Below, in pieces: positions 14,441 through 64,000 of a stretch of DNA of 64,000 nucleotides. This DNA is from Lineus longissimus (taxonomy: Eukaryota > Nemertea > Pilidiophora > Heteronemertea > Lineidae). Positions within the stretch are counted from its first letter, which is position 1. Each line of letters begins with the position of its first letter. A program made the position numbers and the translations under genes. The notes under the pieces were generated by a model, which saw only the letters and a program-made list of their open reading frames with translations, was not told where the DNA came from and ran no database searches. The stretch is taken from assembly GCF_910592395.1 (NCBI RefSeq), contig NC_088310.1:22079501-22143500 (forward strand), read 5' to 3'.

Positions 14441-14979
14441 TCGATTGGTCGGTTCTGTATACATAGTTCGGCATTGATAAGGGTGTAACCAGGGTACAGC
14501 TACATTTAGGCACTATTTGATTGCCAGTCAAGCATGTTCCACCTGGTCCGAATTGTGCTATCTAATCCATGTGACATGACATCGCAGACCTAGGGCGGAC
14601 CAGCAACATCGTAATTGAATGGATACCCTTAACAGTTCCATCCGGACGGATATCTGTTGGCTCGGACATAAAATCGGATATAATACATGTTTACAATTCT
14701 CATCGATTGCAAAGCAGAGCCTTTACAAACCGAAATGAGATGCAACCATTACTGATGATTAAATCAAGTCAACACGCCTACCCATTTGCAGCAGGAATAC
14801 CAACCAATTTGACGTCTGCCTCGCACACCATCTCTTGTTAACACTGGAATCTTTGTATTTATATTACCACAACATTGGTCAGGGTCGATAATCCCCATCA
14901 GTAAAATCACTACATTTGTTGATGTTGATTGCTGGCACTTGGTCTCTGATACAGCCTGGTGCGGACATGAACCTGCGCC
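14441..14979. other. spacer between tandem TRPV-like genes
   Basis: A 539-base spacer separates copies 1 and 2. No coding signal or clear promoter motif is visible. Confidence 0.5.
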
Positions 14980-24265: not shown

Positions 24266-24338
24266 ATGAAAATTAACTTCTTATTGCCCCTTTTAGGGGT
24301 AATACTGGGGTCCTGTTCGGGTGTGTCTGCTACATCCA
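24266..24338 (+). CDS. giant gene exon 1: signal peptide
   Basis: The exon encodes MKINFLLPLLGVILGSC and continues to ATS, a typical cleavable signal peptide. It ends at phase 1 with donor GTAAGT. No methionine further upstream is needed. Confidence 0.85.
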
Positions 24339-27300
24339 GTAAGTAGATACATGTATAAACCGTGTTACATATTCCACCTACTTAGGCATTTTTTATCAAT
24401 CTCTGAGAGAAATGAAAATTGGCAAACGCGCAATACGAGATGGAAGTGCTTCTTGCGCAGTGATTGCACAAAATTTCACGGCATGCTTCAGACTGGCCAA
24501 CTTGACTAAGAAAGTGGATGTACTCGATTATTATTTTTTTGTCTTTTTTACCTTTGTTCGACGAAAGAGTGACATTAAAATTTTATATGTGTTTTCCCAT
24601 ATCTCTGCTATTTTGGCTATGCGGTATTTATAGTAACATGTTTGTTCTCTCATCAGTTTATTATGTACCCTGCCCTGAAGTCTTCAGTGAATATGAGAGG
24701 TATGTGGTAACAGTACAGCCGAATACTGCTATATCAGAGATAATGCAAGGATTATCTAATCAAAGTGTCAGAGATGCTCTTTCACAAAGGGAACCCATGA
24801 TGAAGACATGTTCACAGGATAGTGAATGTGCTGTGCCTGGAATGACCCGGACGTGTAAACCAATAATCCTTCATGGGAAGACATTCGGAGTGAAATTGTG
24901 CTGTGCTCACGCGCGATCAGGTATGCATGATTTCATGTATGTACATGTAGCTTCGACAATTTTAATTCCTTCAAGGGTTTAAAATTCAGATATTCCCTAA
25001 TCAGCTGAGCGCCAGTCCTCTGGCCTCTTGTTAAAATTCCGTTAATTTTCTTCAGATTATTAGTTTTCATAGTCAAAGAGAGATCCGGATACATTTGTCT
25101 ATTCCTTCAACACTGAGCTGCTCCTATAACCAAGTTGTTAGTATACGATTTGCTACAGTTCTGTTCAAAAGAGACGTTTTAACAAATCAAAATGCATCCA
25201 TTTTGTCTGGCCAGGAATTTTTATTTCGCTCCCGTTTGCACTTACATGTAGCTTTGAATCGATCGGACCTATATTGAGCGATCTTTTAGCTAAGATATAT
25301 ACCACGTGTTCAAAACTTTGTTAGCTTTAACAGAGTCGTTAAATCTTAACGGGACAATTTTAGGGGGTCTACCTGAAAACGATAACCTCCTTAAGGATAC
25401 TTAATGTAACGTTAGGGATACGTGACTTTAATGCTTTTGAACAGCCGAGGCCAGTACTTAGAGGGTTCATGTTCATTCTGGTCAATTGAGTTGTCGTGAG
25501 AGTGTTCAAATGAGTTTTATACATTTTTGCAGTTCCTGCGTTGTTTATGTTGACCAATCAAGCTCTCATGATGGCTTTCAGCAGTCCTTCTTCATCAGTT
25601 ACGCCAGGTTAGTCATGAGTCAGTTTTTTCCCCTATTAACCAGGTTGCTTTACTATGAGGCGCCATGTGGGAATTAAATTATTTGACGAAATTATTTGAA
25701 ATAAGCAAATTATATCGAAATAAATGAGTGAACGAAGTCAAGATTATTTCCAAACCATAAATTTGCTTATTCCAATTGTATTTAAACCATTTACTGTTCC
25801 TATCGATATTGTTTCAAACAATGAATTTGCTCTCTTTTGATTATATTCATCCAATAAAACAACGTAACTTTATTGTTTTCAAATAATACATTTTCTGAAT
25901 ATCCGTGGTTTCAAATAATCAAACTGTCTCGAAATGATGGTTTGTTAAATAATCTTGCATTCCAGCAACGTTTTTTCAAACCATGAAAACGCGAACTCTG
26001 ATTGTTTCCATCCAAGCAAAACTACGTTCATGGTATGCGCACATGGTTTGCGCAGTAGACGGGTTTTATTAAGTTCAAATTCAAACCCGTCTTCTGCGCA
26101 AACCATGTGCGCATACCATGAACGTAGTTTTGCTTGGATGGAAACAATGACTTTTGGAAGTGATTGGATGGAAATAATCAGAGTTCGCGTTTTCATGGTT
26201 TGAAAAAACGTTGCTGGGATGCAAATAATCAACATTAGATGAGTACAATTAGATTGTATACAAATAATTTCGTGCACACTTTCATGATTTGAAACGATCA
26301 GCTTGTTAAAGTGATGGTTCGGAAATAATGATTTTGTGCGTGATTGTTTATCATCCAATGCAATGGACAATTTCCTGGTTTGAGAAACCATGACTTTTTT
26401 AGTTTTGATTATTTAACAAACCATCATTTACGGGCTTCATTTGGTGCTCCGTGTATAGGAGAATTTCTAATAGCAGGTTATAAACAAATGACATGACGGG
26501 TTGCCCTTCATTATAGGAGATGTAAAAAAGAGCTCATTTCGTAGTCACGGATATATGATATAGATCGTTTTTATCCAGATTATGTCGTCGATCCGGCCTT
26601 AGTGCTTTGTATCACGGACTTATATGCATAAACTAATCGTACCAATTCTCATATTATTAGAAATTCCTTGACCTCCTCTTTTTGTGATTGCAGTTAGACT
26701 TATAAAGAAAAATGTACTATCAAAAATAGAAACCAAAAATATGAGCATCCCGACATATCAGCCATTTCACTTGATACATACTTACTCCCTCAAGCATAAG
26801 GAGGAGTCATGTTGGCAAGAGGATGAAATATGAGTTAAGTTTGTCGAATCGGACTTGGTGCTCTTTTGCAGGAATGCTTCGTCATGAGATAGGAAGGATG
26901 CTAAACGACTATGAGAAGGTTAAGGAAAAACTGAATCTCATGGTCTTCACTACGACGGCGATCCGATATAAAGAGCTCACGAAGAGTGTAAATTTTCGCT
27001 GTCCAAAGATCAAGTGCAGCCAAAACTGTGCTTTCGGTTACAAGATGGCCAAGCCTAATAGTACGCAAGCTTTGTGTCCCGGTTGTGACTGCGAGCAGGA
27101 TCCATGCAAGGCAAGTAAACTGATCCGAAAAAAATCCTTGGACAAATACTAGTAAAAAATAATCTAAATCCAATTCTAAATTTTCCACGTGCTGAATCTC
27201 TTTTTTAAATTTTCTTATCGTTTTAAACACTGGATCGGTGGTGAGGGCAAGCTATGGTAAGAATCGTGCGCTTTTCTATAAATGTCTTAACAGTCTTAAA

Positions 27301-30300
27301 TGATTTTTTCAATGATTTAGTAAATCGTGAGTGTATGTTGATGTGAATAATACAAGCTTTTTGCACTTTATATGCGAACAAGCGTGTTATTTTTCATGCA
27401 GACAAATCCTTCAATTTGCAAGTCGGAAGAAAATTGCCATTTGATCCGGTTTCCTCCGCCCGCTATCCTTAGTTATTCTCTTGATCCGAAAATGTTCTGG
27501 GTGTTTGCTGAATGTAGGAAAAGTAAGTATGTCCTGTGTTTACTTCGAATATACGTCACGGTTCAGCTGGTATTTTTTTCTGTATAAATGTATTATAAGT
27601 TGCATTTTATGCCATAAAAGTCCGTGCATATGCTGATGAAATCAACACTGAACTTTTAGATGAAAATAAAACGTTGCCGACGAAAAAGAATCCGTAAGTT
27701 ATAGTACGTTAGCCCCCATGACTAATGCTTCCGGTACCTTTATACCCGGCTTTTGACGTTGCTTATTAATTCTTACTCCAAGACGTCCAACATCTTTGTG
27801 TTCACCATTTCCAGTTGTGAAGCCAGGCTCCTGCCCATTTGGTGGCATGTCTTTCTTTGATTGTGGCAACTGCGCGTGGAAATGTAAATCGGACGACGAG
27901 TGCAGAGGTCGTGGGAAGTGTTGTGCTACCATGTGCGGAACGAAGTGTGTCCAACCAAGAGGTCTGGAGCCAAACGTTCCACAGAAAAGTAAGAGATCCT
28001 GCACCAAACTATTGCAATAGACGATTTCAGATAACGTGTTAAATTCACCAGCCTCTATTAGTTGTTGCTTACTAACTGATTCGGATTTGACTTCGAATTC
28101 GCAAAGATTTGACCTAACGGAGCATTACATACGTGTAATACAATTTTCATTATACCTCCTGCATCCTGGGGAATATAAATTTTATTAGGGTTTCCACGAC
28201 ATTTTGTTGTTGTACCATCTTTCCTCGAAATCAACTGATAATTTCTGTATAATGTCGGCAGAACAAAAGCTTGCTGACTGTTCATATTTTATATTAGTCG
28301 CCAGTGTGTGGCAACGTTCTGGTCTGGCTTCTCTGAAACTTAACGCAAGAGAGTGGTGGCGTCACTCTAAGGAAAGTAGTGGTTACATTCACTTCTTCAG
28401 CCCTGCACACCGTTAGGGCCGGAGCTTCCTCACAATTTTTTATAAATCATTTACTGTTGGTACTTAATAATAAAAGAACGATTAAGTTGATCATTCTGAT
28501 ACTTAGCACCAGCTCGGGCTCAGACTGGAACATCGGCCGACCCACCAGTATCACCACCCGGACCTAACAAACCGAATATGACGAAGCCAATGCATCCTCC
28601 CAAGCCATGCAGCAAAAAATGTGAGTATTCTGTCCTTTCCCACGCACTCAACATGCATGATACGTTACTGTATTCATTACGTTTTTTGCCCCTTTACCTC
28701 TCAGTTGTAATAATTCAGGCCTCGCCCAATACACAGTCTATTGTCTTTAAACAAAGCCTGCTCGCACCGAGGCCTTAATTCCCTTTGTTCTACTGTCTAT
28801 CGAATGGTTATTAGGTTAAATCTTAAGAGCATCGATTCCCAAGCAAACAGCTTTCATAGGAATCGATAGGCCTAAAACGACACGGGCAAATAACGGAATG
28901 TTTGTTATTAGCTGTGTCTTGGTCACATTAAATTCCCAAGGCTGTTCATTTCCCTTCCCATAGGGAGGGAAGAGCACCTGGTGCACTAGGAGAACCTCCA
29001 TGCATGGTAATGAAGGAGTGAATGAGCGGTGATTGTCAATGTCTGTGCTCAATCTCCTTTTTTGAGGCCCAGTTTTTTAAAGTCAAAGTGGAACAAACAT
29101 TTTATTCTTAATGGCTTTGGCAACCCCTGGTGCTTTACATGGGTATGGAATGCAGTCCGTGGTACTTTAACTATAGCCTAAGGAGGCGACGGGCAACTGA
29201 TTAGAGATCCAAAATAGGCAGTCACCAACGGCACAAGAAGGAGAGAAAGAGTATGCGTTTGCTACTTATTGCAGTCCATTATCTTTTTCCAGGGAAGCCA
29301 GCTGGAGACTGTCATAAAAAGCTTGACGAGGCCATAAAAATGCTCCTGAAGGACCATAACTCTATGCCATTCTTGCCGAGGTGAGTTCCCATGCATCGAC
29401 ATCAAATAAAGGCAACGAAAACAGGCTTTGAACATTACCGACCCCGCTCAAGTGTCAACGTTGCTCAGTTACTTCCTGTAGGTAGATCAAGCACTGTTCA
29501 AGCAGAAACATTTCGAACACAGCTATTTTTTTCTTCCCTTCTTGGCCGTGTACTTCCACTCTAATAGTATGCGGGTGGTCTGATTATTCTATTGTTCTTT
29601 AATGACTTACCAAGAGAAAAAAGAGTCATGATGATTCTTGCAATGCCCATACAGCGCCACCACCAATTATGGCCGGCGACTGTACCGAGCCCATAAATAT
29701 GGGCCACATGTAATACGGAAATAATATCACCAAAAGAATGTATCGTGACAATATGGCACGATGATGCAAAATGGGAATTCCTCGCATAGGAGAAAAGTTC
29801 AGAACTCTCACGATAAACGACAACGGAAACGACAGGGACGACTACCTAAAAATCGATTACCGATTCAACTGTCATTCTTCAGGTGTAACTGGGACGGTTC
29901 TTGGCAAAAGGTCCAGCTTAATGATGCGACTGGCATCAGTTGGTGTGTGAATCAGACAGATGGCAAACCAATCGAAAGGACCAAAATAAGAGGAGTCGCT
30001 CAATGCGAAGGTAAGTAACGAGTTGTGGGTCGTCTTCCGAAGTATAAACGCATGTTAACAATCCTTTCTAGTGCTTGCTGCATGGGGTGATAACTGGTCT
30101 TCCTGGCGCACACCACCACCCTTTCCGAAGTCGTTGCCTTATCTTTTCTTGGACAGGGCTTGGAGTCCGATAGGTTGTACCAAGGCGACTAGTCACCATA
30201 ATGCAACTGGATCTGGTTGACTGGGTGGCCCGGATCTGGTTGACAGGCCCAATTTCTTAACAAATGTATACACAGTTGTGATGATGCACTGTGATACAGT

Positions 30301-33300
30301 AGGGTCACCTGTTAATTAGCCCATTTTAATTTCCCTGCCTACTGTCTTTGTCTCCATGTGTTACTCTTTTTGGAAAGAATTTTCAAAACTGCAGTATTCT
30401 GTCAAGCCCCCCTCCGAATAGGGAATAAGTTTGTCATCTGATCGCCGAGCAAATATCAGATTTACGGGATGTCCAGAACAAAGACTATTCCAGCCAATTT
30501 TCTATAATACTGGTGCATCAATTTTCATGACGCTACCACTTTTTGTAATTAAGGCCTTGTGCCAGTCACTCATACACAACCATACTGGTTGCACATTTTC
30601 CAACAAAAATAAAAAAACAAATAGAATCGTTACCCCTCTCAGATGGTGTAGAGTACATGTCATGCGAGTAGGGAGTCATCCCGGAATACGAGCGAAAGAT
30701 ATTGGAAGAAGCAATAAAACGAGGTCAAGCTACAGCAGATACGCCGATATGGACGCTAGTCCTTTTCATAACTGAACAGAATGTCCGGGACGTTATCAAA
30801 GAACTCGAACCCCTTGCGAAGTACTGCACACAGGATAGCGACTGCGCCGTGACTGGTATAACTCGAACGTGCAAACCAATCATTCTCGGTGGAAAGCCAT
30901 TCAGAATGAGCCTGTGCTGCCCACACGCACGAAAAAAACTAGGTATGGAATACACGGTTTCAGTTCCAATTGGGAACTTTTCCTTTCCTCTGCTTGCACA
31001 TGCTTTTCCCTCGTCTTCCATCTTCTCGACCATATTGGTTCTTCTTTTTTCAGTGGATCATCTCCGACCATCATATTCTCACTACAGTCAATCAAATACA
31101 AAACCAACTAGCATCCATGGTGAACTTGCTTTGCGCCCAATGCTTCGCCGTCAAAGTACATGCACTACCGGTAATTAAGAAATGTGGTATCACGATAAAT
31201 TGTTTACTTTCTCATACTTTTCCTGCCATCTCATTTCAGTCCAGCAAAGTCTAGTTGATGGTAAGTAAATATTCCAAAACACCTTGGTAATGATGTAGTA
31301 TTGTAATGAAGTACTTTGCCTCATTCTGGTGACAGCAGTTATGGCTAGGCATCCATAACCGCTTTGGTTGGTGCAATATACGAAAGCAGCCAAAATTAAA
31401 TTTGAGTGCTTCGTTTTGGGTATATTGAAGTAAAAAATATACCACACAACTCTGGTGGAGCTGCCATTTCGCCAAACATCTCGGCTACCGCTTCGGTTTG
31501 GCCAACATTATAGCTTCATCCTTGCAGTGTTCGGTGGAACAACCAATACTGACAGTGAAATATCGATTTCCTATGCATAGAAGACAAATGATGTCAAAAA
31601 AAGCGCGCGTATTTCTTCTTTTTCCATACACGTACCCTTCGATTAGATGTACATGTACTTTTTCTTTATCTAACTTATCATACCCTCTTGTGATACATGT
31701 ATCGTATCCCATTTTACGCAACTGTATCAGAGTCTCTATTATGGTCGAAGATTACACCAACTCTCGTGCCTGGACAAGCCTAGTCACTTTCAACATAGGG
31801 GTTAGTGCTATGTTGGGGTCCCATGTCCAAATTTAAAAAATAATCTTTATTTACAAGGTTCTTTGTCTACATGTAGTTCTCCAAATCGCAATAGGAGGAG
31901 AAACTCCTGTGGTGAATTTTTTTCACTGGTGAAGATAAGTCTTGTTAATTATCAGCCCAGTTACCGTCAGTTTGTTGCAGTTGGTGTGCTTATTTTCAGA
32001 GTGCCAGGGGAAGAAATGTCCCATTTCTTCGTGTTTTATGCGCCCGCCATGTCAAGCGTTCCCCACGGCAGTCTGCAGGGCGAATCCGTGCAATAACTGC
32101 AGTGCTCTTGAGTTCTACATGCCAGGAAAGTCGAAACCAGTTGACTGCTACAAAGGTATGCAAGCACAAAATCAATCAAGTCAAATAAGTGGCAGCATTG
32201 GCCAGCAAACGATTCGACACATACTTCGCTGTATGGTAAATTCATTACTTTTAAAAGAGAAATCATAAAAATTCCACGTTCATTTATCATCGGCTTTTTC
32301 GATGTGAATCCGATGTGTCACGAAACCTTTACTGGAAAGTGAACATAAATAAAGCTGCACAGTCGTGATGGATTCCATGTTCAGTTTTGAGGCTATTGTG
32401 AAAGAGTTTGAATAGGTTCGAATAGCTGAAACATGAAGTTTAACTCTTTCAGCACCGTTGTTTAACAATATTGATTCTTTCAGCAACGTGGCTGAACCGA
32501 TATTGACAGACTAGTAGTTCGGCCTCATCCGTTAGGTTTTTTTTTAAAGAGTTGAATGCGCTAATGATCAATCGTCGGTTTTGGAATTGAATTCAACAAG
32601 AGGATCCAGAATTTCTACCCGATTTATTGTGATTATTTCTTTCTTGGTTAAGATATCAAAGCGTCAACCTGTTTGAAGCAACGAGATGACGCGAACCGTG
32701 ACTACCTGACAAAGATGCTCACCACCACCCTCCAATTTTACGGAGAAGATAAACGAATGACCGAAATTTATTCTCCCTTCATGAGCCTAACTATAAAGAT
32801 ATTTTACGGTGGACTTTACGATCAATTTTTAAGCGATGACATCAGACGTGAGTACTTATAGTCTCATCAGTGACTCAGTGCATCATCTAAGGATGCGAGC
32901 CGGACGAGGATTGTATTCACATCATTATTCGCCAAGAAGACAGAATCGGGGTTTTAATTGACTTCAGGAAAGTGATGAATAAAAAATATAAATTCATGGC
33001 CTGATGTTATGAGAAGAAAAGACATGCGTACACGAACTGCCATCGCCCTATAACAACGTAGTATTCCATGCAATCTGCTATTCCCAACTGCCTAGATATA
33101 TTTTTCTACTGATTATTATCTCCCAAAACATGGAACTCTCTCCCCAGCCTTGATAATGCCGTGTGTTGTCATCAGGATGCCGTGATGGCCAAATGTCTAT
33201 GTACTACAGTAATAATGTCTCTCCCTTTCTTTCCAGTGGAAATGGTAATGGACATTTATAAAGGCATAATGGACGTGTTGCCTGTCCAATCGCCTCCAGG

Positions 33301-57300: not shown

Positions 57301-60300
57301 CGATGCTGTTCTAGACAGGCTGAAGGGACACAAAGACTTTGCTGCACTTGTTAACATCATCCAACCATTCAAGGGAGCTTATCCAGGTATATTATGAGGC
57401 AGCGTTTCAGTTTCGATATCCCATAAAATTCTATTTCATTCCAGTGGTTAGTGGATATACATTTCTTTATGATAAGTGCTTGGTGTCTATCCGCTCCTTC
57501 TATCGATCTTCATGTACACGTTTTTTTATATACAATGCCAACCCTTAAAGGAAGATTGTCGAAAGGAGCCAGGTGCACAAGGTTAAGTTTGACATATAAG
57601 TTCCCTAAATGTGCAAGTCACCTTTGGACCACCGAGTCGATCCTTTATTCGTGCCAACAGGCCCCTTCAATTCCTAGGTATGGCCGTTTTTCAGATTTTA
57701 GTGTTTCGATTGGCAGATATATCCTCAGGCTTTGAGTTCATATGCCCATTCAGAGATAATCCACTGTCTGGCTAAACAGGATGATATTGATAGACAAAGC
57801 ATTTCATTTTTTAATAACGGCTTGTAAAACACGCTTCCATGAAAACTAAAATACTTCAATCTTTTGCAGAGGACATAAATATCATCCAAAAAGTTCATGA
57901 TTTCCTTGGGAAGTCCAGTTTCTCTGATTCGGACAAGAAGCTGTTGCGCATGGCATTAGGAATCTGGCTGACTTATCACAGCAAGTGCCCAACCGGTTCA
58001 GACTGCAAATACAATGCTTGTATTAAGGCGAGTTGGCTAATCTTTGATTAGTTGTTTCTGCCGTATTAGTTGTGTCAATCACTGCTTGATGACCCCTGGA
58101 CTGATCCTTGTGACCTTTGACCATCTTGTTTGGACGTGCTCTAAAAGCATTGTTCTTATGATTTCTCTTCCAATTTGGTATTTTACACATTTGTAGAGAA
58201 TACACGACGCATAAACTTCATGATGCTTTCTTCATCTTCTTATGCATTTACTCTTGCCTGGAGGAATAATTCTCGAAGGAGGAGTATATACGCTATCAGG
58301 ACTTCTTGCAATGCTTGATCCAGGAATACGAGAGAATGCAGCCTTTATACCCATCAGAGACAACCGAATGTGTGATCTTCGAAACAATGGGATCTGGCCC
58401 CTTCTTCAGAAAAACGTGGCTGATAATATGATGGACCTATTTCTCTTATTCAATTACTTTCTTATGTTTTAGATTAAGTGTCAATCGGGGCAGGCATGTG
58501 CAGACTTTAAATTCCCACCAATTGGAATCCATACGTGGAGAGCCAGAGAATGTCGCAACGGTGAGTAAGCTGAATGTTTTGAATGGGGATTTGCCCGATG
58601 TATGGTGGCAACTCGGTTATCAGGAGATATGAGGTTTAGATATATATCTGCAGAGGGTCGTCTTCTGCATTCTTCTGCATTCAGCAAGTCTGGTGCAACT
58701 ACTTTAATGCCAACATGTCAGTTATTTGTAGAGCATATCCAATAGTGGTCATTTGAAAACAGGGGCAAACAACCGAAATTAGGTTTTTATTGCGTTCATC
58801 ACGGATGCTGTCTGCTTCAAATAAATATGATAGATGGCTCCCGATTGGTTAATACTGTCTGGAACACCTCACTTGCTGCTTGAGGAAAGTGGTAATCTTC
58901 TTTTCCTGGGCTATGATTTCAGTGACCAAGATTGGCATGTGCCCATGTCCAGCTCATATGCTCTTCAAAGCATTCCCCACTGAAAGGAAGTGTGACAATG
59001 ATGGACATTGCCCGTTCAAGAGGAAGTGCTGCAGGGGTGGATATAGCAGTATGTGTATGGAACCACTGGACCCTAGGCAAATGGAGAAAGGTATGAGAAC
59101 ATCAGTTTCTTCACTTAACGTGAAATAAGTACAGAATGTTGCCTGTCTTATTAAAACTTGGATTCGAACAACAAATCTTTGGATGACTTATCCAAATATC
59201 TGTGTATCGAAGCCCAGTGAGGAAAACATGATTTTTCGGTACTTATTTCATTCAAAGGCAGAGTGAACTGATGTTTATTTCACATTTGTTTCTGTAATTG
59301 TCTCGTATCTTGAGATCAAATATGAACAAATGTGAAATATGTTTATTACGACAGCCTCGTGCTACAGTGCGCGATCTACACAGGTGGCGCCTCTACCGTT
59401 ACAGGGTAGCACTAATTGTCTTATGGTTGTGACGGTTCAGAACCGACTTTACATACTATTACATCTTTCCCTTTTTAAGACAACGCATTTTCAATAATTT
59501 CATGATATTGCACTTGGCCCCAGTGTCCACTTTCATCGTTGTCTTGACATTGTTCACATCTAGCACAACATGAAGGTCCTCTTCTGATCCTCCTTGTTTT
59601 TTTCAATTTCAATGTAGAGCATATCAGAAAACTCAATGTACATTTCGAGCTCACCGACAGTTTTGCCAGGATTCCCAGGCGGGTTGTGGTTATTATGCAG
59701 CATAGCTCGGCATACGGACACGAAATGATTCCACTTAGTGCATTTGGTGCACTGTTTACCATAGGCTGGGCACAAAGATCTAGACTTGTCAGCATGTTTT
59801 TGGTACCCGCAATAATCAAATTTGCTTCCAGATTTAGGCATTTCTGGCTGTTTCCCTTGCATGGGCTTGAATTTACGATTGAATTGGGGTTTGGAAGTCA
59901 TAGTGTCAGGTTTAGGAAACTGTTTTTTTCTAACGTAGGCCTAAGGCACATCCCTTTCAGGGTTTATTTCCTTCGCATCCTTTTCGGAGATTTCATGCAC
60001 TTGGCAGACTCCAATTGCTTTTTCAAGTGTAAGATAGTTTTCGTGCAGCAAGATCTTCCTGACGTTTTCTTTCATTATACCGATGACGACAATCGGATCA
60101 CGGATCATGTCGTCCTTTAGTTCCCCATTGTTAGCTCTGGTTTTCAAATCAGACAGGAACGTAGTAAACAACTCCCTGGATTGCTGTGCACAAGAATTGA
60201 ACTTGAACTGCTCCATGATCGAATTTGTTCTGGGGTTACAAAGTTCTTTGAATATCTGTTTGAGGACAACTGGATTGTCCCTACTTTCAGCGGCGACTGC

Positions 60301-63300
60301 TGCAAGACGTGGACCCCCTGCTGGGTTGTCGCGAGCGTTCTCCATCGATGGCTTCACTGCCAGCTAGGTTGAGCAATATGGCAGCTTTGACTGCATTCCC
60401 TTTGTCACTGTAGCCAGCATTATGTATATGTCGTACTCTCTTTCAAACATACGCCAGTTTTCTGCGACGTTGCCCTCAAAGCTGAGAGCGGTTGGCTTCC
60501 GAAGCACGACGCCGCCATGTTGTTTTTTGTTTACGAATAGGTGGAGTAAGTGCGAGAAAACTGTCCTTTTCAGGCCTTTCAAAAGTTCATTTTGAGTTGA
60601 TGAGAGGTTGATAACCTGCTTGGGTTCTTCATCGTTCCATATTACTAGAACTGTCACTTTGACACCATGTAAATGACTCGTATCTTGAGATCAAATATGA
60701 ACAAATATGAAATGTGTTTATTACGACAGCCTCGTGCTACATGTGCTACAGTGCACGATCCACACAGGTGGCGCCTCTATCGTTACAGAGTAAAACTAAT
60801 TGTCTTATGGTTGTGACGGTTCATGACCGACCTTACCTTACATACTATTACAGTTTCAGCGATTCTCAATTACATGTTAATTTTGTTTCAGTACAAACAT
60901 ATCATTTGAAGATCAAAACCATATGAAATATTTCGAATAAAGTGCCCGATCTTTTATGTTCACGATTTTCCTTGTAGAAAGAGGAGGAAAAGAACAATGT
61001 GAGAAAGAGGAAAAGAACAATGGCAGGAAAGATGACAAGAAAGATGACAAGTCCTGCATACCTGTCCCTGTACCAACACCACCATCAAAACCAGGTAAGC
61101 GGAAATATTTGTTTTCATCTAGAGCAATTGCTCATTTCACTGTCTTGTGATGCAACTGGTGTGACATGTGTGACTTACATTGAAGGTGTTGATAAGGAAG
61201 CTTTTAAGTATGCCGCAATGGAATTTGGGAGCCATGGCAGTTGGTTATGCATGAGGTTAAGTATTGTCAACTGTTTCTAATTCCATTGTATGTATCCTAT
61301 TAAATGTAAACTGGTTATTGATATCTATGCCCAATTCCTGAGCCCACAAAATGTGCCATTTTCTTTACATGATTCTGCACAGTAACAACCGGCCTTCTGA
61401 CTAATTGTGACTTGCATCTCGACTTGCGTTGATATAAGAATACATTGCTTATTTCAGCTAAACTTCCTGGTGTGTGCCAGACAGAATCTGATTGTGGCAC
61501 TGGATTTAAATGTACAAATAACTTTTGCACTTGTGGTAAGTTAATGGTTTGGAATATTTTTTTAGATTTAATTCAACTTATTTTTCATTATGATAATGCC
61601 AATTTTGTGGTTCTTTCTATAAAAATGATATACATGTACGCCACTGCCTTATCCATTTTAACAGCGCCAGAGAACACTGGAGGTAAATGATATGATAACC
61701 AGCAGACAGTTATCCATGACAGCTCAAGTGCATAATGCCCTAGATTAACAAGCAACAGTCAAAGAATTATTATACCAACTATATACAACATGCATTATCA
61801 GTATCACACCTGGTGTGAGAGTGGTGCACTAGATATAATTGTGGTTGGACAATATACAATGAAGAGAAATGTCATAGGCCCTCCTTCATTGCAAAACACC
61901 ATCATAGTACTTTGGCAATTAATGGTTATATCGTAATTTTTTACTCTGCAGACGAAGACGTCCAACTGGTTGATCCCGAAACCTGTCTTGGCAAGCTTTA
62001 CAAGGTGCAGCGTATGTTGAAACAGCTGGGTAGTAAGCTCCCTCCAACTAGAATGGTTGGGATCTTTATTCCCAGGTATGTACCGTGTGTGTATTGCCAA
62101 GGGTTTTGATGCATTAAGAAGTATGGTAGTCAAAAATAGAGAGTCACTTTATAGAGGAGGGGCGTTAAGTACATTGCTTGATGAATTAGCATGACATCAT
62201 TGAACCCAATTGGATGGCTTGATGTAGCACAGTGCGACCATGCACGTAAGTGAAAACAAGAGTCGTTTTTTTCAAAATGACTAGAATGTGGATTACCATG
62301 CTCTTGCAGGCACCCCTTGTTTGAAAAATTGGAAGCTGCCGCAGAGACGAAGTCACCAACTAAAAACATGAAAATGTATAATTAGAATGTTCTTAAATCA
62401 TTTAAGGTGCCACGAAAACAACACCTATCACACAGTACAGGTCTATGATCATCTCGGCCTTATGTTCTGCGTTGATCCAACGACTGGCCAGCCAACTTCA
62501 GACAGAATTCGTGGAGTTCCTGACTGTACAAGTAAGCGATGTTCATCAAAATCAAATATCCTGTTGTCTTTATTGACTATCGTCTGATAGATAAGAAATT
62601 GGCATATAACAAAATCAGATGATGAAAACCTCAAAGATGACAGGACACGTCATTTTGTTGGGTATTTCTGTTCAGTATATTTTGAAGTCGCCTTAGAACC
62701 ACTAAAAACTATCAACATCGAAACTCTATTTTGTCTTAGGTTGACATTATATAATTGATGACTATGCACTTTTTTATTTGTAGAGCCGGAGAAGACAGGC
62801 ACAGAGGCAGGTGAGTCTACACTTCAAACCTAAGGACAAAGTTTTGCAACCAAATTTTATTGAGCAGATAAAAAACAACAAGTTTATTGGGGAATGTGTT
62901 GCCTTTGTGTTTATAAAATGCTAAAGTCATTGGACATGATGATATATTATCTTCTCGACTAACTTTATTATATTATTCTTCAGTGTGCCAAACTGGTAAG
63001 ACCACTTTCTGCCCAACGTCGATATGTGAGCATGCAAAGTGTCCTGACCACCCAGATGCCACTTGCCTCATCAACCCATGCAGTGGTTGCAAGCCGGAAT
63101 TCTACAGGAACATCAGCCAGCCCCTTGAATGTTTCAAGAAGCGAGGTAATTTTTTTACTAAATTTTCCTTGCAATGAAGCTGTTTCTTTTTCAAATGCGA
63201 TACTAGTAGATTTTGGTTAACTTTTATCTAAGGGCATTTTATGGTATCCAAAAAAAACTATTCCAACAGTTACAGGGCATATGAAGGGGTCTAAACCAAA

Positions 63301-64000
63301 CTTAATCTTATTCTATTGTGTTCGTTGAAATTCTTTACCAGCAGGCCAAACCAATCTAACATATGTTGTAAACCACCAAATTTTCCCCGGCTATTTTTCA
63401 CGAATCTTTTCATGCATTTTCATGAATTGCCAAAATAAAGTGGTGGGAAAAATTTGTTGTTGATAGTCAATAACTTTGCAACCCTTGATATTTGTTTCGT
63501 ACACCACATTATTTTCAGATGCCAGTGCAGACTCATGTCAGAAGAAACTGTATCGAAACATCAAAGCTCAAGTTGACCAGAAGACCAAGATTATGGATCC
63601 TGCCATGACACCAAGCGCAGCGATGATGGAAAACATGATTGATCATCTTATCATAGCTAGGTCGGGGATGATGCCAAGCCTAGCGAGGGAACATGGTAAG
63701 CGAATAAGGCCTAAAATGGGGGGGGGGGGGCTTTTATCAGGAGAATATAGGCAAGTGTTTTGGATACTAAAAACATGCAGTGGGTCCCTAGGTAGGAATC
63801 TGTTTTTGTCTGCTTATATACTGTCATGGAATGATGTTTTCCTGACAGATTTGGTATTTGAAAGTGACTAAGACCCTCACTATATCTCATATCTCAGAAT
63901 CCTACATCACCCCCTGTTGAGGCCGATGATTTGTCAATACCCTCAATTAACAGAATGTGGTCAATATCTTTCAGCGAAAACTAAGGGGACAAAATTCCTG
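24266..64000 (+). CDS. giant modular secreted protein (Tg1/WAP/Kunitz/antistasin/NPCxxC), 67+ exons, continues off the right edge
   Basis: The gene starts at ATG 24266 with a signal peptide. I traced 67 exons to 64000, all with GT-AG or GC-AG borders and matching phases, totalling about 10.67 kb of coding sequence (about 3,558 codons); the 3' end is outside. The symmetric exon 30643-30942 is left out of this count because it has an in-frame stop. Almost all introns are phase 1, except phase 0 within the antistasin/four-Cys pair and phase 2 within split Tg1 modules. Domains occur in a fixed order repeated every 10-11 kb. The product should be a very large extracellular protein with many disulfides, built from families whose members often inhibit proteases. 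Papilin-like matrix protein, mucus or capsule protein, or defence inhibitor are all possible; I cannot choose. The prediction could also hide more than one transcript. Confidence 0.85.
24657..24920 (+). CDS. giant gene exon 2: EB-like cysteine module (A1)
   Basis: An 88-codon symmetric exon begins with YYVPCPEVFSEYER and ends with CSQDSECAVPG, TRTC and LCC. The Cys spacing recalls EB or WAP-type four-disulfide folds but is not a full match to either. A close copy lies at 30643-30942. Confidence 0.8.
24921..26871 (+). other. long intron 2 of the giant gene
   Basis: A 1.95-kb intron. Its right half is an unusual patchwork of ATTATTTC, GGTTTGAAA and CAAATAAT words and contains a large palindrome (25932-26429). 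The minus-strand open frame inside it is a product of that palindrome, not a gene. Confidence 0.7.
25932..26429. mobile_element. palindromic element (MITE-like), about 500 bp
   Basis: The first 23 bases, beginning AAATGATGGTTTG, are exactly repeated in reverse complement at the right end (26407-26429). An inner palindrome has arms of roughly 100 bases (25965-26070 and 26089-26214) around a short spacer; the right arm carries about 36 extra bases. No protein is encoded. No target-site duplication was confirmed. Confidence 0.7.
26872..27110 (+). CDS. giant gene: helical lead plus antistasin-like module 1
   Basis: An amphipathic lead (MLRHEIGRMLNDYEKVKEKL) is followed by CPKIKCSQNCAFGYKM and CPGCDCEQDPCK, the Cys pattern of antistasin-family inhibitors. 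It ends at phase 0 with a GC donor (AAG then GCAAGT). The exon otherwise aligns with 37178-37386, 47887-48125 and 57870-58027. Confidence 0.85.
27402..27522 (+). CDS. giant gene: four-Cys exon after antistasin 1
   Basis: It continues the DPC of the previous exon with ICKSEENCHL and a final FAEC. The pattern DPC..C..GE.C....AEC is shared by the homologous exons in later units. It runs from phase 0 to phase 1. Confidence 0.8.
27815..27988 (+). CDS. giant gene: WAP domain 1
   Basis: A full whey-acidic-protein core is visible: GSCPFGG, CGNCAWKC, DDECRGRGKCC, MCGTKC. WAP domains commonly inhibit serine proteases. The exon is symmetric 1-1 and 58 codons long. Confidence 0.9.
28507..28620 (+). CDS. 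giant gene: Pro-rich linker exon, unit 1
   Basis: A 38-codon symmetric exon with PPVSPPGPNKPNMTKP and a terminal PCSKK. It is a flexible linker between WAP and Tg1. Borders are CTTAG and GTGAGT. Confidence 0.7.
29293..30010 (+). CDS. giant gene: split thyroglobulin type-1 domain 1
   Basis: Exons 29293-29380 and 29883-30010 join at phase 2. The first half gives DCHKKLDEAIKMLL and FLPR. The second gives CNWDGSW and SWCVNQTDGKPI, ending GVAQC. The third and fourth Tg1 cysteines are both missing (KVQL, ISWCV). Tg1 domains are structural or inhibit cysteine proteases. Confidence 0.9.
30643..30942 (+). pseudogene. extra A-type exon with in-frame TAG (candidate poison or alternative exon)
   Basis: This symmetric 1-1 exon is a close relative of exon 2 (TRTCKPIIL, EYER, LCCPHAR shared) and has good borders (CCTCTCAG and GTATGG). 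In the only frame that fits, codon 30669-30671 is TAG, just after MSCE. Downstream the frame stays open and conserved. It lies out of order between a Tg1 and a mini-exon. Skipping keeps the frame; including it would end the protein at about 409 residues. Confidence 0.7.
31240..31260 (+). CDS. giant gene: 21-nt mini-exon
   Basis: VQQSLVD is encoded between TTTCAG and GTAAGT at phases 1-1. It occupies the Tg1-to-NPCxxC position where other units also have mini-exons. Confidence 0.6.
32000..32155 (+). CDS. giant gene: NPCxxC module 1
   Basis: The exon reads ECQGKKCPISSC, PPCQAF, AVCRANPCNNC and ends DCYK. It belongs to a nine-copy Cys-rich family in this gene with a central C-x-x-[ND]PC-x-x-C core followed by an aromatic residue. 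Confidence 0.85.
32653..32847 (+). CDS. giant gene: helical exon, unit 1
   Basis: A single-Cys exon (STCLKQRDDANRDYLTKM) predicted mostly helical. It is symmetric 1-1 and aligns in position with 43301-43459, 53036-53209 and 63519-63695. Confidence 0.75.
33237..33887 (+). CDS. giant gene: long variable exon, unit 1, with furin-like site
   Basis: A 217-codon symmetric exon, mostly helical and hydrophobic with a single Cys (LDC). It carries GRKKRS at 33311-33328, a good furin-type cleavage site. It shows almost no similarity to the long exons in the same slot of units 2 and 3. Confidence 0.8.
34473..34712 (+). CDS. giant gene: degenerate Kunitz-like exon, unit 1
   Basis: It has YFDVKNSTFKKYTYSTFC, recalling the YFYN...C part of Kunitz domains, with FCARQPP, ICRM and ALC before it. 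The last two Kunitz cysteines are not clear, so an inhibitory fold is doubtful. It sits where clear Kunitz exons occur in units 2 and 3. Confidence 0.7.
35109..35264 (+). CDS. giant gene: single-exon Tg1 domain, unit 1
   Basis: VCMADGTFRSKQC, GICWCVNDNGLPI and LTC give a canonical CWCV Tg1 core. The first Tg1 cysteine is not in this exon and may be the last Cys of the preceding exon. Confidence 0.9.
35608..35634 (+). CDS. giant gene: 27-nt mini-exon
   Basis: It encodes GATRIPKPA between TTTCAG and GTAAGT, phases 1-1. It is a linker between Tg1 and the next NPCxxC module. Confidence 0.65.
36164..36313 (+). CDS. giant gene: NPCxxC module 2
   Basis: KCGDGFPFKNCKDAC is followed by FCRADPCNNCTLNF and a Lys/Glu-rich end (PKEEKKQ). 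Confidence 0.85.
36788..36883 (+). CDS. giant gene: short helical exon before antistasin, unit 1-2
   Basis: A 32-codon exon without Cys (FNPFVEPAVQVLRNITLMYS). It occupies the slot of 47564-47650 and 57267-57386. Confidence 0.75.
37178..37669 (+). CDS. giant gene: antistasin-like module 2 plus four-Cys exon
   Basis: Exon 37178-37386 carries CPNKCPSDKCPVAGVKLVDG and PCVCADDPCK, the cleanest antistasin-like copy. It ends at phase 0 with a GT donor. Exon 37573-37669 adds LCYFRGSEC and AWAEC. Confidence 0.88.
37876..38037 (+). CDS. giant gene: WAP domain 2
   Basis: NCPCKMDHDVSCKREC, LDCEGTMKCC and CGAKC give a full WAP core plus one extra Cys near the start. Symmetric 1-1. Confidence 0.9.
38432..38644 (+). 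CDS. giant gene: EB-like exon, unit 2
   Basis: A Met-rich helical lead is followed by KKCDTDKDCDKAAMEKC, STC and VC. It follows WAP, as in unit 3 (49162-49368). Confidence 0.75.
39090..39173 (+). CDS. giant gene: linker exon with one Cys, unit 2
   Basis: A 28-codon symmetric exon (FMPMQPECKNNTTGKN) between TCTTCAG and GTAAGC. Confidence 0.65.
39716..39853 (+). CDS. giant gene: WAP-like exon, unit 2
   Basis: QCHKECENDNDC, MRCQHRGC and NCMC resemble a shortened WAP core in which KCC has become RC. It is an extra copy not seen in other units. Confidence 0.75.
40480..40952 (+). CDS. giant gene: split Tg1 domain 2
   Basis: Exons 40480-40564 (GCHLELKQQIQVLRHNPDQ, FLPR) and 40831-40952 (CNKDGTY, LSWCVQPDGQKI, ISC) join at phase 2. 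As in split copy 1, the third and fourth cysteines are absent (VVQL, LSWCV). Confidence 0.88.
40953..42780 (+). other. long intron with minisatellite
   Basis: A 1.8-kb intron between split Tg1 2 and a mini-exon. Half of it is a roughly 61-bp tandem repeat, listed separately. Open frames across the repeat are not genes. Confidence 0.8.
41753..42668. repeat. minisatellite, about 14-15 copies of a roughly 61-bp unit
   Basis: Each unit contains GGATTCATACTGGAGATAAA, then CCATTTGGTATTGACTC, GGTTGCTG and TCACCTGGGAG. Copies in the middle (42183-42660) are most alike; the left ones are more diverged. A poly-G of 14 lies at 42484-42497. One frame of the unit reads HTGDKPF, like the linker of C2H2 zinc fingers. 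Confidence 0.9.
42781..42810 (+). CDS. giant gene: 30-nt mini-exon, unit 2
   Basis: SKILPQNDEP between TTTTCAG and GTAATA at phases 1-1. Confidence 0.65.
42989..43150 (+). CDS. giant gene: NPCxxC module 3
   Basis: VCAVGEKVHNCPPKMC, KLCPGD and VCRVHPCNGCFVKFF, ending TCNG. Confidence 0.88.
43301..43459 (+). CDS. giant gene: helical exon, unit 2
   Basis: PCLTEKVAELKQKAFKAM runs into a Met/Glu-rich helix and LMHSGRGNEVKMM. One Cys. The words LMHSG and MLHSG are shared with unit 3. Confidence 0.82.
43868..44677 (+). CDS. giant gene: long variable exon, unit 2 (Met/Gly-rich)
   Basis: A 270-codon exon, the largest in the gene. It has a Thr-rich stretch (NTTTTREP), MGMGEGLGIGKPKGGEGMGG, and a Ser/Gly linker before GVCAGQTS, with seven cysteines. 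It shares slot and symmetric phase, but little sequence, with 33237-33887 and 53573-54094. Confidence 0.85.
45067..45336 (+). CDS. giant gene: Kunitz domain with expanded first half, unit 2
   Basis: The second half is clear: YYYNSTSKTCKKYEDTGCG, then FTTMLGCEMIC. Between the second Cys and YYYN lies a long insert with an extra Cys (PEQDCKPKD). The usual GPC[KR] reactive site is not recognisable. Confidence 0.85.
45602..45799 (+). CDS. giant gene: single-exon Tg1 domain, unit 2, fused with linker
   Basis: KCNGTTGGFMSRQC, GMCWCLKDGKPV and IECD form the Tg1 core. The exon runs on into a linker (LKPLNDQNLI) that in units 1 and 3 is a separate mini-exon. Confidence 0.9.
45976..46149 (+). CDS. giant gene: NPCxxC module 4
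   Basis: KCSSGNQPEVAKC, PACRDKPMC and AICVANPCNGCMATF, ending ATCIDK. Confidence 0.88.
46481..46666 (+). CDS. giant gene: Kunitz domain, unit 2, second copy
   Basis: All six Kunitz cysteines are present: MCQFKAADY, KGCFKLQWRYD, SKCKPF, NRCDAKYVKF, KMCQHMC. The residue after the second Cys (P1 position) is Phe, not Lys or Arg. Confidence 0.9.
47150..47323 (+). CDS. giant gene: NPCxxC module 5 (divergent core)
   Basis: KCKSSTDQPKVCYPSPCPKSC, then RCIVDHCTCTFKLYD. The NPC core has become DHC, but spacing and the aromatic after it are kept. Confidence 0.85.
47564..47650 (+). CDS. giant gene: short exon before antistasin, unit 2
   Basis: A 29-codon exon with QFMAFNKTCMVSGTDH; the slot precedes antistasin module 3. 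Confidence 0.75.
47887..48533 (+). CDS. giant gene: antistasin-like module 3 plus four-Cys exon
   Basis: Exon 47887-48125 has a helical lead and then KCQAVCADC, TCPFGFAYKR, DGCTCVKTNPCP, ending phase 0 with GTAAGT. Exon 48452-48533 gives ALNCKSGEKC and VAECVK. Confidence 0.88.
48139..48242. repeat. 52-bp tandem duplication in an intron
   Basis: Two adjacent copies, each with ATTCAGTTAAACAGC and GTCTTGAAGTAAGG, differ by very few bases. It is recent and lies within the antistasin 3 intron. Confidence 0.9.
48701..48859 (+). CDS. giant gene: WAP domain 3
   Basis: KCPCVRPPYAGVSCEMKC, GDCPSKDKCC and ACGRSC give the eight WAP cysteines plus an extra one near the start. Confidence 0.9.
49162..49368 (+). 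CDS. giant gene: EB-like exon, unit 3
   Basis: NPCVNMM, FCKVKMCSTEKDCDGNHYC and RICCPK. It is the clearest relative of exon 2 outside 30643-30942. Confidence 0.8.
49915..50010 (+). CDS. giant gene: PCPP-type six-Cys repeat 1
   Basis: KPCLLKCPSNQTCQFEVAPC followed by PPCPRFPKC. It is tandem with the next exon, same length (32 codons) and phase. Confidence 0.85.
50220..50315 (+). CDS. giant gene: PCPP-type six-Cys repeat 2
   Basis: DPCALNCKPGLMCRFVQVQC followed by APCPPQPQC. It resembles the DPC/four-Cys unit after antistasin, suggesting common origin. Confidence 0.88.
50909..51007 (+). CDS. giant gene: Lys/Glu-rich linker exon, unit 3
   Basis: KQADKEPKKEKEDRMKKTLE with one Cys near the end (LKC). 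Symmetric 1-1. Confidence 0.75.
51290..51800 (+). CDS. giant gene: split Tg1 domain 3
   Basis: Exons 51290-51368 (SCRRQLAEKVMKMKKM, FLPR) and 51667-51800 (CTQEGNWQAVQC, GICFCVNDKG, PDC) join at phase 2. This is the only split Tg1 in the window that keeps all six cysteines; CWCV is CFCV. Confidence 0.9.
52081..52110 (+). CDS. giant gene: 30-nt mini-exon, unit 3
   Basis: TKTVDTEPYD between TTTTCAG and GTAAGA, phases 1-1. Confidence 0.65.
52432..52602 (+). CDS. giant gene: NPCxxC module 6
   Basis: VCQGQGTPLMCNPTMC, GCPKHPTAVCRINPCGTKC and DCYP; one extra residue in the core. Confidence 0.88.
53036..53209 (+). CDS. giant gene: helical exon, unit 3
   Basis: TSCQSRRVAAMHIQHLNSII, then a Met-rich helix and MLHSGMLGNVARIF. 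One Cys. Confidence 0.82.
53573..54094 (+). CDS. giant gene: long variable exon, unit 3 (Met/Glu/Lys-rich)
   Basis: A 174-codon exon with PCKPPAMKWEEKFELVEEML, an acidic Met-rich middle, and MDEKKKKMESM at the end. It shares only the start theme with unit 2 (a Cys followed by a helix). Confidence 0.83.
54753..54953 (+). CDS. giant gene: Kunitz domain, unit 3, first copy
   Basis: MCNRRPLLERCDKPG, then an insert, YPMYYYDGVSKICKQY, EYGCLKSATTF and SGCTLFC. Six cysteines are present. The P1 residue would be Asp, which argues against trypsin-like targets. Confidence 0.9.
55222..55386 (+). CDS. giant gene: single-exon Tg1 domain, unit 3
   Basis: YVPQCNMTTFKLNSKQT, VSWCVNENG and LQCD. The third and fourth cysteines are replaced by Thr and Ser. 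Confidence 0.88.
55705..55740 (+). CDS. giant gene: 36-nt mini-exon, unit 3
   Basis: GQASTGPRSKKV between TTTTCAG and GTAAGT, phases 1-1. Confidence 0.65.
55910..56065 (+). CDS. giant gene: NPCxxC module 7
   Basis: TCPGGKPPKICDKSC, then VTCQADPCDDCKETF. Confidence 0.88.
56231..56419 (+). CDS. giant gene: Kunitz domain, unit 3, second copy
   Basis: RCDRPATV, PKCMKKQYYYDDSNTKMC, DGCMKTD, and FDSLQDCMMIC. Six cysteines; the P1 residue would be Met. Confidence 0.9.
56754..56951 (+). CDS. giant gene: NPCxxC module 8
   Basis: ECAQGTKRLICGKDNC, then AVCMMDQCDDCKPKLY and STCSQ. Confidence 0.88.
57267..57386 (+). CDS. giant gene: helical exon before antistasin, unit 3
   Basis: KPPCKPEIPLDAVLDRLKGH and a helical end; 40 codons, symmetric. 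Confidence 0.78.
57870..58560 (+). CDS. giant gene: antistasin-like module 4 (shortened) plus four-Cys exon
   Basis: Exon 57870-58027 keeps the helical lead but only CPTGSDCKYNACIK of the antistasin part. It ends at phase 0 with a GC donor (AAG then GCGAGT). Exon 58473-58560 gives IKCQSGQACADF and AREC. Confidence 0.83.
58923..59090 (+). CDS. giant gene: WAP domain 4, lacking two cysteines
   Basis: MCPCPAHM, RKCDNDGHC, RKCCRGGYSSMC. Relative to copy 3, the second and seventh WAP cysteines are missing while the rest remain. Confidence 0.85.
59299..59463 (-). repeat. LTR, downstream copy for the minus-strand element
   Basis: It shares CGTATCTTGAGATCAAATA, GGTGGCGCCTCTA and TCTTATGGTTGTGACGG with the other LTR. 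Length 165. Confidence 0.85.
59464..59476 (-). promoter_or_regulatory. candidate polypurine tract
   Basis: TCTTTCCCTTTTT on the plus strand is an AAAAAGGGAAAGA purine run immediately before the downstream LTR on the minus strand. Confidence 0.65.
59560..60657 (-). pseudogene. gag: decayed gag remnant
   Basis: Open segments on the minus strand encode a capsid-like stretch (ENWRMFEREYDIY, then LFTTFLSDLKTRA) and a CCHC zinc knuckle at 59710-59751 (CTKC, H, C). A stop at 60364-60366 and an apparent frameshift just before it separate the segments, and a further stop precedes the knuckle segment. The pattern is that of Ty3/gypsy-type Gag in invertebrates. It is not functional as it stands. Confidence 0.8.
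60651..60667 (-). promoter_or_regulatory. candidate tRNA primer-binding site
   Basis: On the minus strand the sequence TGGTGTCAAAGTGACAG starts six bases after the LTR, and begins with the TGG typical of primer-binding sites. The matching tRNA was not determined. Confidence 0.55.
60674..60852 (-). repeat. LTR, upstream copy for the minus-strand element
   Basis: Near copy of 59299-59463, longer by a short internal duplication (GTGCTACATGTGCTACA) and a few bases near the end. The differences suggest an old insertion. Confidence 0.85.
60978..61094 (+). CDS. giant gene: charged and Pro-rich linker exon, unit 4
   Basis: RGGKEQCEKEEKNNGRKDDK, then SCIPVPVPTPPSKP. Symmetric 1-1; functionally a linker like 28507-28620. 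Confidence 0.75.
61458..61535 (+). CDS. giant gene: short EB-like module, unit 4
   Basis: VCQTESDCGTGFKCTNNFCTC, a compact five-Cys module of EB/EGF-like look, 26 codons. Confidence 0.8.
61665..61682 (+). CDS. giant gene: 18-nt mini-exon, unit 4
   Basis: APENTG between TTTAACAG and GTAAAT at phases 1-1. The smallest exon proposed; less certain. Confidence 0.5.
61952..62531 (+). CDS. giant gene: split Tg1 domain 4
   Basis: Exons 61952-62075 (TCLGKLYKVQRMLKQL, IPR) and 62407-62531 (CHENNTYHTVQV, LMFCVDPTTGQP, PDC) join at phase 2. The third and fourth cysteines are replaced by Val and Met. The acceptor is TTTAAG. Confidence 0.85.
62784..62810 (+). CDS. giant gene: 27-nt mini-exon, unit 4
   Basis: KPEKTGTEA between TTTGTAG and GTGAGT, phases 1-1. 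Confidence 0.65.
62984..63145 (+). CDS. giant gene: NPCxxC module 9
   Basis: VCQTGKTTFCPTSIC, KCPDHPDATCLINPCSGC and KPEFY, ending ECFKK. This copy best resembles a Cys-rich module I recall from mollusc multi-inhibitor proteins. Confidence 0.88.
63519..63695 (+). CDS. giant gene: helical exon, unit 4
   Basis: DSCQKKLYRNIKAQVDQKTK, a Met-rich helix and ARSGMMPSLAREH. It aligns with the helical exons of units 2 and 3. Confidence 0.82.
63975..64000 (+). CDS. giant gene: next exon, truncated by the window edge
   Basis: After TTTCAG the frame opens as AKTKGTKFL at the expected phase. By position it should be the long variable exon of unit 4. Confidence 0.65.

Follow-up and report, generated by a model that had tools for sequence, protein, structure and literature searches.

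The exons that run from 24266 to 70700 in and beyond a 64,000-nucleotide stretch of Lineus longissimus chromosome 3 (C3 22,079,501-22,143,500; hereafter the window, in whose coordinates all positions are given) belong to one predicted gene. Its product is, at a probability of about 0.6, a giant type I membrane glycoprotein and a nemertean relative of the arthropod CG5639-type proteins, with cassettes serving as multivalent inhibitors or decoy substrates at the cell surface and with a cleavable juxtamembrane domain. The host is a nemertean, within Lophotrochozoa, and the assembly searched comprised 391,118,348 bases in 30 contigs, C3 being 29,083,594 bases long; the available text of PMC8593623 gives 391 Mb for the assembly and 29.08 Mb for chromosome 3. 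The top protein match of our hand-checked gene model was NCBI LOC135484230, an "uncharacterized protein" of 4210 aa (P0001). It matched the genome letter for letter through 77 coding exons (24266-70700, forward strand, single frame), of which 66 lie fully inside the window, one crosses its edge and the last 10 lie beyond it.

Three exons precede the cassettes: exon 1 with the signal peptide MKINFLLPLLGVILGSCSGVSATS at the N-terminus (24266-24338, phase 0-1), exon 2, an X-type Cys exon without Pfam match (24657-24920, 1-1), and a linker (exon 3, 25533-25607). When the antistasin-slot exon is taken as the first of each unit, four complete cassettes follow; they contain 15, 18, 20 and 16 exons and span 9.4-10.5 kb each. 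The order is an antistasin-slot pair, WAP, X or linker exons, split Tg1a, CRD, spacers, Kunitz, Tg1b and CRD, and an extra Kunitz and CRD stand after the slot-B CRD in cassettes 2 and 3. The preliminary description had proposed a tandem super-module of roughly 20 exons and 10-11 kb; the ordered tandem of a multi-exon cassette of about 10 kb held, and the exon counts and sizes are replaced by those given here.

Cassette 1 (26872-36883) opens with an antistasin-like exon (26872-27110; E 1e-5 with the beetle antistasin HMM and 0.0054, which misses the cut-off, with Pfam Antistasin) and its partner (27402-27522; joined pair E 4.3e-6 with the beetle HMM). A WAP exon (27815-27988), a Pro-rich linker (28507-28620), the two halves of Tg1a (29293-29380 and 29883-30010), a micro-exon (31240-31260), the slot-A CRD (32000-32155) and two spacer exons (32653-32847 and 33237-33887) come next. 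It ends with a degenerate Kunitz-like exon (34473-34712), Tg1b (35109-35264, 1-1), a linker (35608-35634), the slot-B CRD (36164-36313) and a last linker (36788-36883). Cassette 2 (37178-47650) consists of the antistasin-slot exon (37178-37386) and its partner (37573-37669), WAP (37876-38037), an X-slot exon (38432-38644), a linker (39090-39173), a second WAP-like exon (39716-39853), the Tg1a halves (40480-40564 and 40831-40952), a linker (42781-42810), the slot-A CRD (42989-43150), spacers (43301-43459 and 43868-44677), Kunitz slot 1 (45067-45336, E 5.4e-8), Tg1b (45602-45799), the slot-B CRD (45976-46149), Kunitz slot 2 (46481-46666, E 6.8e-5), the slot-C CRD (47150-47323) and a last linker (47564-47650).

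In cassette 3 (47887-57386), the antistasin-slot exon (47887-48125) and partner (48452-48533) are followed by WAP (48701-48859, E 5.1e-8), an X-slot exon (49162-49368), two DPC-type exons (49915-50010 and 50220-50315; beetle DPC HMM E 6.7e-4 and 7.6e-7), a linker (50909-51007), the Tg1a halves (51290-51368, and 51667-51800 with E 2.4e-10), a linker (52081-52110), the slot-A CRD (52432-52602), spacers (53036-53209 and 53573-54094), Kunitz slot 1 (54753-54953), Tg1b (55222-55386), a linker (55705-55740), the slot-B CRD (55910-56065), Kunitz slot 2 (56231-56419), the slot-C CRD (56754-56951) and a last linker (57267-57386). Cassette 4 starts at 57870 and continues past the window end at 64000 to 67274. 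It carries a diverged antistasin-slot exon (57870-58027) with its partner (58473-58560), WAP (58923-59090), a linker (60978-61094), a short X-slot exon (61458-61535), the Tg1a halves (61952-62075 and 62407-62531), a linker (62784-62810), the slot-A CRD (62984-63145) and two spacers, the first at 63519-63695 and the second starting at 63975, cut by the window end and running to 64577. Beyond the window, Tg1b is separated from the juxtamembrane exons by two CRD exons (66145 and 67083) and a micro-exon.

Pfam scanning of the whole protein detected Tg1 in eight stretches (2.2e-52), WAP in four (7e-16) and Kunitz in four (9.5e-16); the other Kunitz-like and WAP-like exons were assigned by similarity within the gene, and spacer exons were covered by this whole-protein scan only. 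Some Kunitz, Tg1 and WAP copies exceeded the Pfam cut-offs singly, the Tg1 of cassette 3 in two scans, while no match was returned for the CRD (two), X and DPC exons submitted. The 11 CRDs share six invariant cysteines, and comparison with PDB sequences gave nothing better than E 0.13. A fold resemblance to NvCI, the Nerita versicolor metallocarboxypeptidase inhibitor, is no more than a lead, as sequence tests failed or were marginal: NvCI was absent from the nine Foldseek matches at E≤10, the Z score was low and may be due to chance, and hhalign gave 0.7%. Three of the 11 CRDs exceeded all but at most 2.2% of shuffles against NvCI and eight did not, and with the slot-A HMM 59 of 1000 shuffles that kept the cysteines fixed scored as high.

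These cassettes would hold many disulphide-rich, protease-binding folds out from the cell surface, where the folds may inhibit extracellular cysteine and serine proteases multivalently or serve them as decoy substrates. Several of the domains, judged by eye, seem ill-suited to canonical inhibition. Cys3 and Cys4 of Tg1 are both kept in three of the eight copies and both lost in five, a joint fate expected if they pair in the folded domain. The distance from the second to the third Kunitz cysteine, 15 in BPTI, ranges from 13 to 33, which makes canonical inhibition doubtful for several copies; in addition, the Kunitz-like exon at 34473 is degenerate and the fourth WAP copy has too few cysteines. 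An alternative keeps the gene and topology but has the inhibitor folds reused as a stable structural scaffold: the protein would form a long stalk on epidermis or gut, adhesive or belonging to the glycocalyx, and would inhibit no protease. We regard this as a substantial possibility, yet one that falls short of an even chance. Besides the degenerate Tg1, Kunitz and WAP copies, it draws on the 49 N-glycosylation sequons and on the Met-rich spacers (4.5-16.7% Met in eight spacer exons, e.g. in 43301-44677 and 53036-54094; 5.56% in the whole Lineus protein against 2.15% in beetle P0004). The modelled arthropod membrane-proximal part also resembles EpCAM/TROP2, and the Tg1 of EpCAM is, according to the available text of PMC7349879, cut by proteases rather than inhibiting them. 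Against a pure scaffold stand the Kunitz, Tg1 and WAP copies that singly exceed Pfam cut-offs, and on the sequence evidence the display of inhibitors or decoys appears slightly more likely than a scaffold or adhesive role.

The preliminary description had called the protein secreted, which was not borne out as stated: past the window the same frame enters a hydrophobic helix, FSCSIGGVVLLTIALLLII; behind it come LLCRKRVQDEKKK and 25 more residues, the tail measuring 38 residues from LLCRKR. Because the frame reaches this helix and short tail, the protein is predicted to be a type I membrane protein, though it may be shed; topology was assigned by hydropathy alone. By the same measure, the signal peptide, the single C-terminal transmembrane helix and the short tail are arranged as in the CG5639-type family. 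If the RefSeq C-terminus were wrong, the product could instead be a secreted inhibitor of nemertean mucus, in keeping with the antistasin-like inhibitors of nemertean mucus proteomes (PMC11768458, available text). This is unlikely, as the transmembrane exon joins in phase and a C-terminal hydrophobic helix is present in 118 of the 120 relatives among the matches listed (a hydrophobic start in 100 of 120).

SEA domains have a beta-alpha-beta-beta-alpha-beta juxtamembrane fold with a G-S autoproteolysis site. This topology is visible in the model of the arthropod protein P0074, and Gly-Ser is present in the Lineus protein at KKGSINISF. Pfam reported no SEA domain there, only weak DUF5305 or DUF7355 matches below cut-off. 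The juxtamembrane domain, residues 4022-4130 of P0001, may be SEA/EpCAM-like and could be a site of ectodomain cleavage and release.

The conservation of exon order among the cassettes exceeded chance, the summed collinear matches being 41 against a maximum of 29 in 1000 null sums. Intron positions are slot-specific: Tg1a is split 1-2/2-1 in all four cassettes, Tg1b is unsplit in all four, and the antistasin-slot pair has phases 1-0/0-1 in all four. Copies also resemble one another slot by slot, for CRD slots A, B and C (none of 3000 label shuffles scored as high) and for the Tg1 a/b labels (permutation fraction 0.025, near the floor of 2/70 for 4+4 labels). The phase-1 borders allow in-frame tandem duplication, by which the cassettes would have arisen. 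Comparison of the cassette DNA, introns included, gave no similarity by blastn at E≤1e-3, so such duplications would be old. That the domains were gained singly and the repeated cassette is mere resemblance is very unlikely in view of the exon order, the slot-specific introns and the slot-by-slot likeness of the Tg1 and CRD copies, even though exon numbers differ between cassettes, spacer exons are mostly unalignable and Kunitz copies show no significant slot grouping by label permutation (fraction 0.25).

Three further elements lie within the gene. An additional copy of exon 2 at 30672-30942 (46.5% identical over 86 aa, with an open frame) is absent from RefSeq; its acceptors score -2.6 and -3.0, the lowest of the 76 annotated acceptors scoring -0.40, and it is probably a decayed exon. 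A possible DPC-type exon relic at 38698-38808, 35% identical to 50207-50317 and likewise absent from RefSeq, sits in the slot where cassette 3 holds its two DPC-type exons; no splice-bounded exon candidate was found there. A minisatellite of about 61 bp in 12.6 copies occupies 41869-42653 inside an intron. One of its frames reads HTGDKPF, which resembles a zinc-finger linker, but the length of its repeat unit is not divisible by three.

The exons at 24266-70700 are one predicted gene, LOC135484230, as read from the genomic sequence. The hand-checked model, which predates the finding of the RefSeq protein and was extended into the neighbouring DNA, has 67 exons, begins with an ATG at 24266, ends in a stop at 70703 (C3 22,103,766-22,150,203) and encodes 3855 aa with no internal stop; both it and the RefSeq model were built on the same assembly. 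An exon finder, seeded with 27 hand-picked exons and retrained on its own output without the RefSeq record, returned an unbroken frame across a chain of 54 exons spanning 26872-63695; 46 exons were phase 1-1, and 48 of the 54 were identical to RefSeq exons. In the RefSeq protein 55 of the 77 exons are phase 1-1, and the internal donors are GT except for GC at 27110 and 58027. The two GC-AG introns occupy the same antistasin slot of cassettes 1 and 4, where cassettes 2 and 3 have GT. The RefSeq map and the finder chain agree with the earlier proposal of a single giant lophotrochozoan protein with a signal peptide in one frame; its 67 exons correspond to the 66 RefSeq exons inside the window plus the one at its edge, and the frame-breaking borders looked for were found at none of the 76 RefSeq junctions. 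Several separate genes wrongly merged in both models were rejected as extremely improbable, given the lone signal peptide at the start, the lone transmembrane exon and stop at the end, the 76 in-frame junctions and the mostly identical chain of the independent gene finder.

Several features were observed outside this gene. Tandem single-exon ORFs at 12662-14413 and 14977-16722 (forward strand; 584 and 582 aa) are 66% identical and match ankyrin weakly. The segments 5979-6149 and 6483-6653 are similar (45.6%), the first matching leucine-rich repeats (Pfam LRR_6, 2.4e-8). An upstream gene at about -19800 to -5970 contains repeated short, mostly 1-1 exons with CPxGY...C motifs, followed by F-type-lectin-like sequence (named by eye), and PARP1-like exons, also recognised by eye, lie downstream at about 81542-89094.

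A profile of three Lineus modules, compared with 2422 candidate proteins at E≤0.001, matched only beetle P0003 (2.2e-20) and P0004 (9.9e-17), in each of which Pfam detects WAP, Tg1, antistasin, lustrin and Kunitz domains. A search with one of these two beetle proteins gave 180 proteins at E≤1e-20; the named ones among the 120 listed were insects and crustaceans, and one carries the name CG5639 (Drosophila busckii). Many CG5639-type members have no Kunitz entry among their Pfam domains, so Kunitz is not obligatory for the family. By motifs, P0004 reads Tg1, antistasin-DPC, lustrin; the same again; Tg1, antistasin-DPC; and Tg1, antistasin-DPC, lustrin, Kunitz, Tg1, Tg1. This motif order misses the WAPs seen by Pfam, and P0031 and P0108 give fewer units by the same motifs.

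The Lineus chain combines Tg1, WAP and Kunitz, all above Pfam cut-off. With the beetle antistasin and DPC HMMs, exons 26872, 50220 and 49915 scored above all 2000 shuffles, and when the antistasin and DPC HMMs were joined, one shuffle outscored exon 49915; clear antistasin/DPC similarity is limited to cassette 1 and two exons of cassette 3. The X exons, first considered by eye to be likely lustrin domains, are short and diverged, have no Pfam match and did no better than shuffles with the beetle lustrin HMM, which thus did not confirm that assignment. The arthropod juxtamembrane profile scored the Lineus domain at a level reached by 0 of 1000 shuffles (an earlier form, 0 of 2000); hhalign gave only 15.8% and 38.5%, the second with an unexplained query depth in its header. 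For the Tg1 domains, position profiles were built from the 58 of 120 listed relatives that have exactly six Tg1 motifs. All four Lineus Tg1a copies scored highest, among the six positions, at arthropod position 5: 68.8 against at most 39.7 in cassette 3, 36.4 against 31.1 in cassette 1, 24.7 against 18.4 in cassette 4, and 37.6 against 37.5 (0.1 bit) in cassette 2, for which a thyroglobulin Tg1 profile was higher still (37.9). The Tg1b copies were best at the mixed positions 4, 6, 5 and 5, and two other Tg1 domains of the genome preferred position 4 among the six. The Lineus protein appears, from these sequence comparisons, to belong to the CG5639-type ("WAP-antistasin thyropin") family.

Elsewhere in the Lineus genome, a gene at C3:1.36 Mb, presumably papilin-like, has Kunitz, antistasin-DPC and WAP units, and tblastn with P0001, P0003 and P0004 detected no Tg1 in the 30 kb around it. 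WAP gave at least 8 genome matches and Tg1 at least 16, four of each inside LOC135484230. No other locus with WAP and Tg1 close together occurred among the matches listed, the nearest being on C13, about 144 kb apart, and the same tblastn queries detected no Tg1 in the 30 kb around each of the four WAP places outside LOC135484230. Only Tg1 was found in the 20 kb around two Tg1 domains at C3:6.98 Mb, a gene we assume to be SMOC-like. This search for a conventional CG5639-type gene left out the Tg1 places on C1, C20, C17 and C13. No lophotrochozoan relative was named among the protein matches listed (self, thyroglobulin, insects and crustaceans), within the limits of a word-based search.

The arthropod relatives also touch on EpCAM and TROP2 (TACSTD1/2). 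EpCAM is small and is not known to carry inhibitor modules. The model of one cockroach CG5639-type member matches EpCAM/TROP2 over Tg1 and the juxtamembrane domain; Tg1 directly before the C-domain and transmembrane helix is seen in this modelled arthropod relative and not in Lineus, where two CRDs and a micro-exon separate Tg1b from the juxtamembrane domain. With the arthropod juxtamembrane profile, EpCAM scored above 999 of 1000 of its own shuffles; with the arthropod profile of Tg1 plus domain, EpCAM aligned over positions 9-88 (E 1.2e-5) and TROP2 only over 9-38. PDB sequence searches with the juxtamembrane domain alone did not find EpCAM, either from beetle (best E 0.59) or from Lineus (best E 2). 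By hhalign EpCAM and the arthropod domain gave 4.6% and Lineus and EpCAM 0.1%, and the direct Lineus-EpCAM comparison did not reach significance, 582 of 1000 shuffles scoring as high. One paper, in its available text, reports no TROP genes in invertebrates. Tentatively, and with less than even odds, the CG5639-type proteins may be the invertebrate counterparts of EpCAM/TROP2. The latter would then retain only the part next to the membrane (last Tg1, C-domain, transmembrane helix and tail) of a multi-inhibitor membrane protein present in ancestral bilaterians, and the bootlace worm would have enlarged the inhibitor part of that protein to a giant by amplification. If so, a Kunitz-type inhibitor and an EpCAM-like protease target, separate in vertebrates, were once parts of one chain; and should the fold match be due to common descent, flies and worms would allow a direct test of where EpCAM/TROP2 came from.

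Among known systems, thyroglobulin, the second match of the Lineus protein (1.8e-12), shares Tg1 repeats, but its Pfam list consists of Tg1, carboxylesterase-type and ephrin-receptor-like entries (given as accessions only), with no WAP or Kunitz. The CG5639-type proteins share WAP, Tg1, antistasin and DPC units, which recur in order in beetle P0004, as well as a juxtamembrane domain, a C-terminal transmembrane helix and, in many members, Kunitz before Tg1. Thyropins with WAP and antistasin domains were described as common to insects, crustaceans and mites in the available text of PMC3407033 (2012), by which date, according to that text, no arthropod thyropin had been characterised; the available texts of the literature searched mention CG5639 in passing, in tables or lists. 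The architecture had at first not been recognised. Its kind is in fact known from these arthropod proteins, with WAP, Tg1, antistasin, lustrin-type and often Kunitz domains and a transmembrane helix, whereas the giant amplified form is new, no paper on a giant nemertean form having been found in the literature searched. Lustrin domains are not recognisable in Lineus, and the beetle sequences lack, by eye, the CRD-spacer-Kunitz-Tg1b-CRD block. What is new in Lineus appears to be the size (4210 aa, against about 1350 in beetles and up to 2207 in crustacean entries), the added CRD and spacer exons and the amplification of an enlarged cassette. The gene is a clear case of a whole 15-20 exon cassette amplified to four within one gene with intron phases preserved, and it brings together research on the arthropod multi-inhibitor thyropins and on the clinically important surface proteins EpCAM and TROP2.
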